Source: Rhodospirillaceae bacterium | Lineage (GTDB): Bacteria; Pseudomonadota; Alphaproteobacteria; Thalassobaculales; Thalassobaculaceae | DNA length: 33,765 bases | Direction: 5' to 3' | Assembly (NCBI GenBank): GCA_002722775.1 | Contig: PBMU01000005.1 | Location: forward strand, 1-33,765 | In this document: positions 26,727 through 30,598 of the stretch, one piece after another | Layout of the letters: every line of letters starts with the position of its first letter | Numbering within the stretch: position 1 is the first letter of the stretch | Notes under the pieces: generated by a model | What the model was told of the DNA's origin: nothing | Seen by the model: the letters and a program-made list of their open reading frames with translations, nothing else | Database searches by the model: none | Position numbers and translations under genes: made by a program

Positions 26727-27512
26727 ATGAACCAGTTACAAGTCGATTTCAAAGTCGACCGCTCCACGATGAGCGATACCGAATGGGATCTTCGCGTCCA
26801 ACTCGCCGGCGCCTATCGGCTAGTCGATCATTTTGACTGGACGGAGTTGATCTACGGCCACTTGACTGCTCGGATACCCGGCGCCGAACCTCATTTCCTT
26901 ATCAACCCTTTCGGACTTAACTACGACGAGGTTACAGCCTCAAACCTGGTGAAGATCGATGTCGATGGCAACATCATTGATGACACACCATTTGGCGTAA
27001 ACCATGCGGGCTTCGTCATTCACTCCGCTGTCCACATGGCCCACTCCGAACAAAATCAGGTCGTGATGCATACCCACACTCGCGCCGGCATGGCCGTTGC
27101 AGGAATAGAAGAGGGCCTGTTACCAATCAGCATGTTTGCTACCACGTTTCACAAACGCCTCGCCTATCATGACTACGAGGGCCCCAGTCTGTTTCTCGAC
27201 GAGCGTCAGCGCTTGCTTGATTCACTAGGGGAACATCGGGCGATGGTCTTAAAGAACCATGGCCTCTTGACCGTTGGCCGCACCGTGCCCGAAACATTTC
27301 TAAGGCTCTATAGACTGGAGCGTGCCTGTCAAATTCAAGTCGATGCGGGGGCTGCGGGCACGCCGAGCATGCTAGGTGACAACATTGCGACCAAGTCTGG
27401 CAATGAGGTCGACGGATACGCCGAAACCTTCGACGACAGCGGATATGGCCAACTCGAGTTCGCAGCCCTGATGCGCAAGCTCGACAAAATCGACGCTAGC
27501 TATCGCGACTAG
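26727..27512 (+). CDS. Class II aldolase/adducin-family protein
   Basis: Zinc lyase-fold protein of 261 residues. Metal ligands are His115 and His117 (MHTHTRAG) and His178 (KNHG). The catalytic glutamate of fuculose-phosphate aldolase (FucA Glu73) aligns with Gly95 in [12 protein letters not shown], so a standard FucA-type lyase is unlikely. Homologues with this [12 protein letters not shown] segment are often annotated adducin-like and have unknown substrates. A strong AAGGAGAT site precedes the ATG. It follows the hydrolase by 13 bases and precedes the cysteine-cluster gene by 13. It may use a product of the hydrolase, but the reaction is not shown by sequence. Confidence 0.88.
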
Positions 27513-27525
27513 AGAACTTGAAATT

Positions 27526-27987
27526 TTGGAGTCGGAAACCCAAAATCCGGAGCGTCCATTCTGGCAGGTAAAGAGCTTGCGTGAGATGACCGTGCAGGAA
27601 TGGGAGTCGTTGTGCGACGGTTGCGGCAAGTGCTGCCTGATCAAACTGATTGACGACGTGACCGACGAGTTGCACTTCACAACAGTTGCCTGCCGGCTTC
27701 TGGATTGCTCCTCCTGTCGATGCGGTGACTACGCCAATCGCAAAACCCTGGTGCCCGACTGCGTGATGCTTTCACCTCGTATAGTGGAAGAACTGCAATG
27801 GATGCCTTCAACCTGCGCATATCGGCTGCTGCGTGAGGGTAAGGAACTTCCTTGGTGGCACCCATTGGTTTCTGGCCGAGCGGAAACTGTCAACGAGGCT
27901 GGCGTCTCGGTGCGGGGCCGCGCTGTTTCGGAACGCGATGTGCCCAACGAATCACTCCCTGACTACATAAGCGACTGGCCAGAATGA
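27526..27987 (+). CDS. YcgN/UPF0260-family cysteine-cluster protein
   Basis: Conserved small protein family of unknown function present in most gamma- and alphaproteobacteria. The 153 residues match throughout: [12 protein letters not shown] near the start, the cluster CDGCGKCC (Cys30, 33, 36, 37), then a second Cys-rich segment [33 protein letters not shown] and a C-terminal part. The cysteines could hold a metal or iron-sulfur centre. It starts with a TTG at 27526, 13 bases after the preceding stop; an in-frame ATG follows at about residue 21, but the WQ-K segment is conserved, so the TTG is preferred. It is likely a hitchhiker at the end of the hydrolase-aldolase operon. Confidence 0.9.
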
Positions 27988-28066: not shown

Positions 28067-28252
28067 ATGAACCGTTCCATGTGGATTTTGGCGGCGCTCT
28101 TCGCTGTGATGGCGATCGCCTTGGTCTATCAGTCCGAATTTGATAGCGGGGTTGAACGGCCATGGAACGATTGCAAGGAAAACCTTTTACAACAAATGTT
28201 TTCCAATTCCTGCACACCACGTACCGGTGGTGTGAGTATTCAGACCGAATAA
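28067..28252 (+). CDS. Small membrane-anchored or secreted protein (61 residues)
   Basis: The product starts MNRSMWILAALFAVMAIALV, a one-segment signal anchor or signal peptide, followed by an acidic 38-residue tail with two cysteines (Cys36 and Cys49), which could form a disulfide in the periplasm. GGCGGGA precedes the ATG by a good distance. No family is recognised. It follows the cysteine-cluster gene by 79 bases and ends at the edge of an AT-richer gap. Confidence 0.55.
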   Translation: MNRSMWILAALFAVMAIALVYQSEFDSGVERPWNDCKENLLQQMFSNSCTPRTGGVSIQTE

Positions 28253-28702
28253 ACTGCGTTACAACGCGATTTGCCTGATTTTAACACTGTTTCAGTCGGG
28301 CAACACATAAAATCGATGGTAAATAAGACCAGCTCGTGTCCAATGGAATGTGGACGCGTGGTATGATATCGTTTGAACGAAGGTCGAATTTAATTCTCTA
28401 ACAACATGGCCAATAGGCATCTGTCGCACCCAGCTTCACCTAACACTACAATTCCTGGGCAATTTTCAGCTAGGTGCTCTCTTGCCCCAACTTGCTAAGG
28501 CATAAGTCGTAAAATCCGATAATTTACTATCCTATCTAGGGAATCACAGCCTGGCATGACACGAATATCACTAACCTTATTGCGAGAAAATAATAATGAC
28601 AGCGCTGATGGTAGACTGAAAGGTCAAATACGATGACACATTTTGTAATATTTATTGACTGATGAAATAGACAATTCATCTTTGGTTGCGAAGCGCACGA
28701 AA
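28253..28702. other. AT-richer gap without a gene; candidate orphan transcript region
   Basis: About 450 bases, visibly richer in A and T than the surrounding genes, show no coding family on either strand. It contains no tRNA-like, SRP, RNase P, tmRNA or 6S RNA landmark. The right edge runs into two intrinsic terminators, so a short transcript could come from here, or it may be the 3' region of the upstream operon. A TTGACT at 28655-28660 has only a poor -10 candidate 17 bases on. Confidence 0.35.
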
Positions 28703-28705
28703 CTT

Positions 28706-28740
28706 AACCAGCAGATGCTTTCATTCAGCTGGTTTCTTTT
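28706..28740 (+). terminator. Intrinsic terminator, first of two
   Basis: 7-bp stem AACCAGC (28706-28712) / GCTGGTT (28728-28734) with a 15-base loop and a T-rich tail (TTTCTTTTT overlapping the stem end to 28741). The stop point precedes a second terminator by eight bases. Confidence 0.65.
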
Positions 28741-28748
28741 TAAGGTTT

Positions 28749-28772
28749 AGCCTCTCCGAGGCTTTTTGTTTT
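28749..28772 (+). terminator. Intrinsic terminator, second of two
   Basis: 6-bp stem AGCCTC (28749-28754) / GAGGCT (28758-28763) with a three-base loop, followed by TTTTGTTTT (28764-28772). It lies 30 bases before the VOC-protein ATG, so transcription of the VOC/amidase pair must start between here and 28803, or depend on read-through/antitermination. Confidence 0.78.
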
Positions 28773-28802
28773 ATCTCCGTCGCGTTTTCTGGAATTACCC
28801 AT

Positions 28803-29204
28803 ATGAGACCGCTTTTCACCCAGCAAGTCACTTTCATCTACACACGTGATCTGGACACGGGTTCCGCTTTTCTTGGCAAAATTCTGGGACTGCGGCGGGT
28901 TCTCAACCAAAGTGATCTCTGCCACATCTATGAGGTCGTGCCAAATGCCTATCTGGGAATTTGCGTCGACCACGAGCCGCCCAAAAATCCTGGATTGACT
29001 TATAGTTTTGTTTCGGACGATGTCGATGCTCATTACACATTGCTAGTTGAGCGGGGTGTCGAATTCGAAGCGCCACCGGCTTATTCAGAAAAATTCCAGG
29101 TCTATTCGGCCTTTTTCCGTGGCCCCGAGAACTATCGATTCGAACTACAGACTTTCCGCGATCCTGATTGGACTACCAAAACGACCATCACGGAGCCGAC
29201 ATGA
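28803..29204 (+). CDS. VOC (glyoxalase/bleomycin resistance/dioxygenase) superfamily protein
   Basis: A single-domain vicinal-oxygen-chelate protein of 133 residues with two beta-alpha-beta-beta-beta modules: the first opens with VTFIYTRDLDTGSAFLGKILGL, split as FIYTRDL and AFLGKILGL, and the second includes YSFVSDDVDAHYTLLVERGVEFE. Candidate metal ligands would be Glu/His residues, but a standard HxE set is not obvious; His84-like residues are not clear by eye, so the metal site is unproved. The ATG at 28803 follows CTGGAATTAC. The stop overlaps the amidase start (ATGA at 29201), showing translational coupling. It may bind or convert a small amide-related compound. Confidence 0.8.
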   Translation: MRPLFTQQVTFIYTRDLDTGSAFLGKILGLRRVLNQSDLCHIYEVVPNAYLGICVDHEPPKNPGLTYSFVSDDVDAHYTLLVERGVEFEAPPAYSEKFQVYSAFFRGPENYRFELQTFRDPDWTTKTTITEPT

Positions 29205-30598
29205 CCAATGATCCAGACCTCCTAAGCGCAACCGAACTAACGCAAGCCTACGCGCAAGGAACATTGTCACCAGTAGAAACAACCAAGAGCGTGCTCGCAC
29301 GGGTTGACAGATACGACGGTGCCTTGAATGCATTCCGGCTGATCGACGAGGAGAACGCTTTAGAGGCGGCCCAGAAATCGGAGGCACGTTGGACCAAAAA
29401 AGAACCCGCCGGTCCCGTCGACGGGGTTCCAGTCACGATCAAAGACCTGACGTTAACCAGAGGTTGGTCAACCCTGCGCGGATCACTTGTTACTGACCCC
29501 GATGCTCCATGGGAGGAGGACGCCCCTCTTGTGAAACGCTTACGCGAAAGCGGTGCCGTGTTGCTGGGTAAGACCACGACACCGGAATATGGCTGGAAAG
29601 GCGTGACAGACAGCCCCCTTACCGGAATCACGCGCAATCCGTGGGACACAGCTATGACACCAGGCGGTTCATCGGGAGGAGCCGCCGCCGCTGCAGCAGC
29701 TGGCATGGGCGCGCTACATCAGGGGTCCGACGGTGGGGGCTCTATACGTATACCGGCGGGATTTACCGGCGTCTACGGAATCAAACCAACATTCGGACGT
29801 GTGCCAAGTTGGCCGGCTAGCGGGTTCGGCACGCTGTCCCATCAGGGACCGATTACGCGGACCGTCACAGACGCTGCATTAATGCTAACGGTGATGTCTC
29901 GGCCGGATCCTGCCGATTGGTACGCTCTACCTTTCTGCAATAAAGACTGGCGCAATGCTCTAAGCCAATCTATTTCCGGTTGGCGAATTGCCTTTAGCCC
30001 CGACCTTGGACACGCTGTCGTGGACGTAGAGGTAGCCAAGTTGGTCAGGGCGGCCGCCGAGAGTTTTGCCGCGCTTGGCGCGCATGTGGAAGAGGCCGAC
30101 CCGGGCCTCGGCGACCAGCACGATATCTTCCGTATCCACTGGTTCACTGGCGCGGCCCGCTTGCAGCGAGCCATGACCGAAAATCAACTCGCCAAACTTG
30201 ATCCTGGTTTTCTCGAAGTGGGGATCGAGGGAGCGAGAATCACATTGGACGATTATCTGGACGCGACGCAGGCACGCGAAGCGACCGGAAGCAAGCTCAA
30301 CCATTTTCTAGATAGCTATGACATTTTGCTCACACCTACGCTTCCGATCACGGCATTTGAAGTCGGCGAGGAAGTACCCGTAGGTTCCGGCATGGACCGT
30401 TGGACCCGTTGGACGCCATTCACCTATCCGTTCAATCTTGGACGTCATCCGGCGGCGACCATCCCCTGTGGATTCTGCTCGAACGGATTACCAGCGGGCT
30501 TGCAAATAATCGGACAAATGAACCAGGATGGTAAAGTCTTGGCCGCGAGCCGCGCATACGAATCTATGCACCCCATCATTCTACCAAAGCTTGATTAA
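29201..30598 (+). CDS. Amidase (amidase-signature family), second copy
   Basis: Hydrolyses an amide to acid and ammonia. It has 465 residues with the full triad: Lys81 (VTIKD), cis-Ser157 (GGSSGG) and nucleophile Ser181 (SDGGGSIR), the serines 24 apart as usual. The glycine/alanine-rich SSGGAAAAAAAG segment and GIKPTFGRVP follow. CGGAGC precedes the ATG at 29201; frames opening earlier at 29168 sit in the VOC gene. It is coupled to the VOC protein by an ATGA overlap. It shares family and length with the amidase at 949-2355, but the sequences are clearly different, so they are not recent copies. No gatB/gatC is adjacent. Confidence 0.92.
   Translation: MTNDPDLLSATELTQAYAQGTLSPVETTKSVLARVDRYDGALNAFRLIDEENALEAAQKSEARWTKKEPAGPVDGVPVTIKDLTLTRGWSTLRGSLVTDPDAPWEEDAPLVKRLRESGAVLLGKTTTPEYGWKGVTDSPLTGITRNPWDTAMTPGGSSGGAAAAAAAGMGALHQGSDGGGSIRIPAGFTGVYGIKPTFGRVPSWPASGFGTLSHQGPITRTVTDAALMLTVMSRPDPADWYALPFCNKDWRNALSQSISGWRIAFSPDLGHAVVDVEVAKLVRAAAESFAALGAHVEEADPGLGDQHDIFRIHWFTGAARLQRAMTENQLAKLDPGFLEVGIEGARITLDDYLDATQAREATGSKLNHFLDSYDILLTPTLPITAFEVGEEVPVGSGMDRWTRWTPFTYPFNLGRHPAATIPCGFCSNGLPAGLQIIGQMNQDGKVLAASRAYESMHPIILPKLD

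Follow-up and report, generated by a model that had tools for sequence, protein, structure and literature searches.

Intrinsic (Rho-independent) terminators occur in tandem at operon ends, as in the T1-T2 pair of Escherichia coli rrnB, and transcription attenuators occur in 5' leaders. Leaders in E. coli are reported to undergo premature termination widely (PMC7815308), and small RNAs are reported to be expressed from intergenic DNA in the reduced genomes of Rickettsia (PMC4683814). A search of the literature on tandem terminators, in which papers were mostly judged from their titles and the beginnings of their abstracts, returned no matching case, and no claim of absence is made from it. Here we describe two tandem intrinsic terminators located directly ahead of a VOC-amidase gene pair, and weigh what they may do there.

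The window, which is the whole 33,765-nucleotide stretch of DNA analysed, is a contig (C5) of a draft genome (G000; 2.57 Mb, 70% complete) that is the sole member of its genus among the 36 family genomes compared. The genes on the two sides of the terminators are co-directional, and a tRNA search of the window found none. The features of the locus are the following.

26727-27512, plus strand: aldolase II superfamily protein gene (PF00596; NCBIfam NF005451)
27526-27987, plus strand: YcgN family cysteine cluster protein gene (PF03692; NCBIfam NF003501)
28067-28252, plus strand: conserved 61-aa ORF (P0001), the last same-strand ORF before the spacer
28253-28705, no strand assigned: AT-rich spacer, in which no gene, no Rfam family above threshold and no convincing relative was detected
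28706-28741, plus strand: T1, intrinsic terminator with a 7-pair stem, a 15-nt loop and the tail TCTTTTT
28749-28772, plus strand: T2, intrinsic terminator with a 6-pair stem, a 3-nt loop and the tail TTTTGTTTT
28803-29204, plus strand: VOC (Glyoxalase) protein gene (PF00903), its start favoured by ortholog matches
29201-30598, plus strand: amidase gene (PF01425; NCBIfam NF004815)

A preceding sequence-only reading had placed the terminators before a gene with no gene upstream, which missed the same-strand ORF ending at 28252, present in 29 of the 36 family genomes (own genome counted); T1 begins 453 nt past its stop codon. This ORF has no match in Pfam or NCBIfam and probably encodes a conserved small protein, to which neither collection assigns a role. 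Its N-terminal part includes a hydrophobic segment, a block near ERPWxxCKENLxxQM is also present, and the ORF lies on the same stretch as the YcgN-like gene in 22 of the 25 loci compared. Counted in the same way, the YcgN-like gene occurs in 31 and the VOC gene in 20 of the 36 genomes, and a protein search of genome contigs with VOC found one distant locus (L002, 27%), which was set aside. The VOC stop codon overlaps the amidase start codon (ATGA). In the upstream direction the VOC frame has no stop as far as a TTG at 28686 and spans both hairpins, and a long-start reading would therefore make both of them part of the gene. The ATG at 28803 is favoured over the TTG as the start, since the matches to orthologs set in at residues 1-6 of the ATG form.

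Both hairpins and both T-runs that the sequence-only reading had reported, within 67 bases and 30 bases before the VOC start, were confirmed where it had placed them, as compact predicted terminators in tandem on the plus strand. The stem arms of T1 (28706-28712 and 28728-28734) form seven pairs, four of them G-C, around a loop that contains an inner 4-pair helix, and are followed by the tail at 28735-28741; its minimum free energy is -10.0, or -10.4 with flanks, and none of 200 shuffles was as stable. The arms of T2 (28749-28754 and 28758-28763) are followed by the tail at 28764-28772, its energy is -7.9 kcal/mol with 2 of 200 shuffles equally stable, and it ends 30 nt upstream of the VOC start codon. 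Each site thus has the G+C-containing hairpin of an intrinsic terminator, with a loop of 3 nt in T2 and of 15 nt with the inner helix in T1, and a U-rich tract directly 3' of it. A relaxed scan of the spacer found nothing besides T1 and T2 on the plus strand, and its sole match on the minus strand was the stem of T1 itself, with the poor tail AAGTTTCGTG.

We read T1 and T2 as a doubled terminator that shields the VOC-amidase pair from upstream transcription, an interpretation to which we give about an even chance. RNA polymerase would arrive by read-through from the aldolase II, YcgN-like and 61-codon-ORF genes, which may form one operon, or alternatively from stray initiation within the AT-rich spacer, and working T1 and T2 would halt it before the overlapping VOC-amidase pair. 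VOC would then be transcribed from a promoter of its own, which would sit downstream of T1 or overlap T2.

How far such a pair exceeds chance depended on the scan and on the scale. A general terminator scanner, whose loop limit of 8 lists T2 and misses T1, gave 17 sites in 13.8 kb against 15.5 in shuffles (sd 4.3), and because the site count is no higher than in shuffles this relaxed consensus scan carries no evidence alone. Using a strict scan (at least 6 pairs, at least 4 G-C and at least 6 T of 8) on the plus strand of the 551-nt spacer, two sites were found, while 8 of 1000 shuffles had at least one and none had two. Across 392 kb, the strict scan returned 27 sites and one tandem pair, compared with 15-19 sites in five shuffles made in 1000-nt chunks, two of which contained a tandem pair. 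Across 768,011 bases (41 stretches, about 30% of the draft genome), it returned 51 sites and one tandem pair, namely T1/T2; in 25 shuffles made in 500-nt chunks the number of sites averaged 35.2 and was at most 49, and three of these shuffles held a tandem pair, non-overlapping in two. A looser energy-based scan of the 392 kb listed 461 sites and 23 tandem pairs, T1/T2 included, and the uniqueness of the pair therefore depends on the strictness of the scan. T1/T2 is locally far beyond chance, only modestly surprising across the whole sample, and no strong genome-wide outlier. That the two sites are a product of AT-rich DNA without any role is accordingly very improbable in our judgement: tandem pairs do arise in shuffles of both samples and conservation was not seen, but no spacer shuffle yielded two sites and the genome sample exceeded even the richest of its shuffles in site number.

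Comparison with related genomes indicated that gene order is mostly retained, and that the content between the small ORF and VOC/amidase varies. In four relatives (G022, G002, G013 and G004) this position holds 650-754 nt with a PAS_5-like gene on the opposite strand, which passed the Pfam cut-off in three of the four (G002 scored 21.6 against 22 bits). G015 carries a TauD gene and then a same-strand PAS_5 gene (on two contigs, each with the PAS_5 gene at its end). In G006 (L046, 1675-2646) the end of a PAS_5 gene, broken into two frames, precedes the amidase, and no VOC match was found in this genome; the same gap additionally carries an ORF without a Pfam match. In G003, VOC begins 4 nt past the small ORF, the YcgN-like gene is on a different contig, and no amidase match was found downstream of VOC within the stretch examined. 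In seven others (G016, G007, G008, G032, G028, G025 and G017), the amidase lies within about 60 nt of the small ORF with no intervening VOC. Since related genomes carry different genes at this position, gene turnover at the spacer is likely, and the spacer may be what an earlier gene left behind, a place in which a remnant of PAS_5 or TauD was not convincingly detected. PAS_5 (PF07310) matches numbered 0 in G000, 9 in G015, 1 (with a stop) in G006, 3 in G023, 15 in G004, 28 in G003 and 0 in G007, in a set in which several genomes are incomplete and G000 is 70% complete; the lineage of the window may have lost the family. In the stretches after the small ORF of 14 other genomes, no plus-strand terminator was found even by the relaxed scan, and therefore no conservation shows selection on the terminators.

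An element TCGAC[AC]-N17/18-TAAG[CG]T stands upstream of VOC in 7 of 19 orthologs (L005, L006, L008, L009, L011, L018 and L021), agreeing at 11 or 12 of its 12 positions and with 37-49 nt between its second hexamer and the VOC match; its consensus was derived from these same orthologs and is a description, not an independent test. None of four amidase-only loci reached 11 matches; G006, one of the four, reached 9, with an exact TAAGCT. VOC thus seems often to be separately initiated in relatives. In the window, the best match of the spacer to the element is 9 of 12. By an approximate sigma-70 matrix, the score of the best candidate promoter near VOC (second hexamer at 28735 or later) was 4.65, whereas the element scored 7.87 in four relatives, and no convincing VOC promoter was found with this matrix downstream of T1 or overlapping T2. 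This is the weak point of the shielding interpretation, as T1 and T2 would silence VOC, not insulate it, if VOC had no promoter downstream of them.

The description of about 450 AT-richer non-coding bases before the terminators held up: the spacer has 41% G+C against 55% across the window, and no gene was detected in it; 99 spacers of at least 150 nt in 21 stretches, delimited by rough ORF-based gene calls, have a median of 49%. Several candidate contents were tried and rejected. As mobile DNA, the spacer matched no phage or plasmid and had no second copy in the G000 assembly (70% complete). As a broken gene, it gave no Pfam match in the three of six frames scanned (X at stops). For a decayed PAS_5 gene, a 6-sequence profile run without a shuffle control found nothing, and with profiles of 7, 32 and 39 sequences, 191, 177 and 56 of 300 shuffles, respectively, scored at least as high as the real sequence; for a decayed TauD gene, BLAST was the one method applied, and 220 of its 500 shuffles were equally good. 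Among eight neighbouring proteins (seven PAS_5-like and one TauD) compared with the spacer by tblastn, one query beat its 500 shuffles, the PAS protein of G004 at 25.4 bits, where the best shuffle reached 22.3 for that query and 25.0 over all queries. This match was set aside, as it runs through a frame with stops, lies on the plus strand when the gene itself lies on the minus strand of its own genome, and is unsupported by the profiles.

A spacer of this kind could also be the body of a lineage-specific small RNA, started from a promoter within it and ending at T1 with T2 as backup, which we consider doubtful. The distance of the terminators from the last upstream stop codon, across DNA without detected genes, speaks for such an RNA, as do the small RNAs reported from Rickettsia. 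Candidate promoters are present in the spacer, including an extended -10 TGGTATGAT at 28359-28367 (7.77) and TTGACT-N16-CATCTT at 28655-28682 (7.80), the best scoring 8.02, but these are ordinary values, since the best candidates per 555 nt of window score 6.9 in the median and up to 11.08. Nor did homology single out an RNA: Rfam gave nothing above threshold for the spacer (a sub-threshold STnc420 match had an E of 2.2), its DNA had no relative in 60 other related genomes, and in 384 other genomes of the class just three weak matches of 26-55 nt (E 0.002-0.003) were found. The conservation of 28253-28702, on which the sequence-only reading had suggested judging the question, was therefore negative among genomes that include no second member of the genus, a set in which a genus-specific RNA would escape the search. 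Folding of the spacer pieces was ordinary (z 0.39 and 0.26, -1.44 for the piece with T1, and -0.46 for 28254-28745 as a whole). A small RNA ending here is thus possible and unsupported by an Rfam family, a convincing relative, unusual folding or a standout promoter.

The terminators could instead belong to the leader of the VOC-amidase pair and be conditionally bypassed, by attenuation or processive antitermination, which we regard as unlikely. With a start near 28690, both hairpins would lie in a 113-nt leader reaching to the VOC start whose folding is stable (z -2.59; 1 of 200 shuffles as stable), but this value counts the terminators themselves. Candidate promoters upstream of the terminators, from which such a message could start, have ordinary scores, as given above. 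In the predicted folds of RNAs ending at 28775, T1 was formed at 0.94 or above in leaders starting from 28580 onward and at 0.10-0.47, being displaced, in those starting at 28550 or further upstream; it was as low in 4, 6, 5 and 4 of 100 shuffles for starts at 28550, 28450, 28300 and 28254, respectively, and in 35 of 100 for the start at 28580. The displacement was weaker in RNAs ending at 28745, where T1 was formed at 0.94 or above for starts from 28600 on and at 0.03-0.79 in longer leaders, and was as low in 5-18 of 100 shuffles (starts 28580-28254), or in another run in 82, 13 and 9 of 100 (starts 28600, 28500 and 28400). T2, by contrast with T1, was formed at 0.95 or above in all 13 predicted leaders of differing length, and hence no predicted fold disarms both, while T1 itself stays at 0.94 or above whenever transcription starts at 28600 or later; among the known riboswitches and leaders of Rfam, none came up at the threshold. 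The leader folding that the sequence-only reading had proposed as a search for antiterminator structures would leave room for a competing structure at T1 in long leaders and for none at T2. Because T2 is untouched, the comparison of T1 displacement with shuffles leaves the odds of the readings unmoved, and attenuation control of the pair finds little support here. The widespread premature termination reported for E. coli leaders speaks in its favour.

Among the three options that the sequence-only reading had left standing, shielding of the VOC-amidase pair from the upstream operon fits best. It is the least demanding of the readings, an ordinary arrangement, and the most likely. The strong local plus-strand signal, the seemingly separate initiation of VOC in relatives and the differing genes at the site support it, and the promoter gap near VOC, the lack of a site in relatives, the lack of a gene remnant in the spacer and the displacement of T1 in long leaders count against it. 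A more elaborate scheme, which we think quite improbable, is that after gene loss the former gene site turned into a lineage-specific RNA element, either a small RNA or a long leader that displaces T1 and is antiterminated at T2, which has replaced the promoter of several relatives and controls VOC-amidase. If it were true that a spacer RNA replaced the promoter, the family would give a usable series for regulatory change, with versions of one site that carry a promoter, a gene, a broken gene or nothing.

Set beside the described systems, the locus resembles each in part. With the intergenic small RNAs reported from Rickettsia (PMC4683814), it shares a spacer in which no gene was detected and which ends in a terminator, possibly after gene loss, whereas the spacer of the window shows neither conservation nor a standout promoter. 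The significance of the terminators beyond this locus is little; they may exemplify gene turnover followed by new transcription boundaries. As in transcription attenuators, terminator hairpins stand immediately ahead of a coding sequence, but the window has no riboswitch or leader family, and a competing fold is predicted for T1 in long leaders only and for T2 in none. Compared with rrnB T1-T2 of E. coli, the pair is alike in that two stem-plus-T-run sites lie near each other on the same strand, and it differs in position, the last stop codon being 453 nt upstream and the next gene on that strand starting 30 nt downstream.
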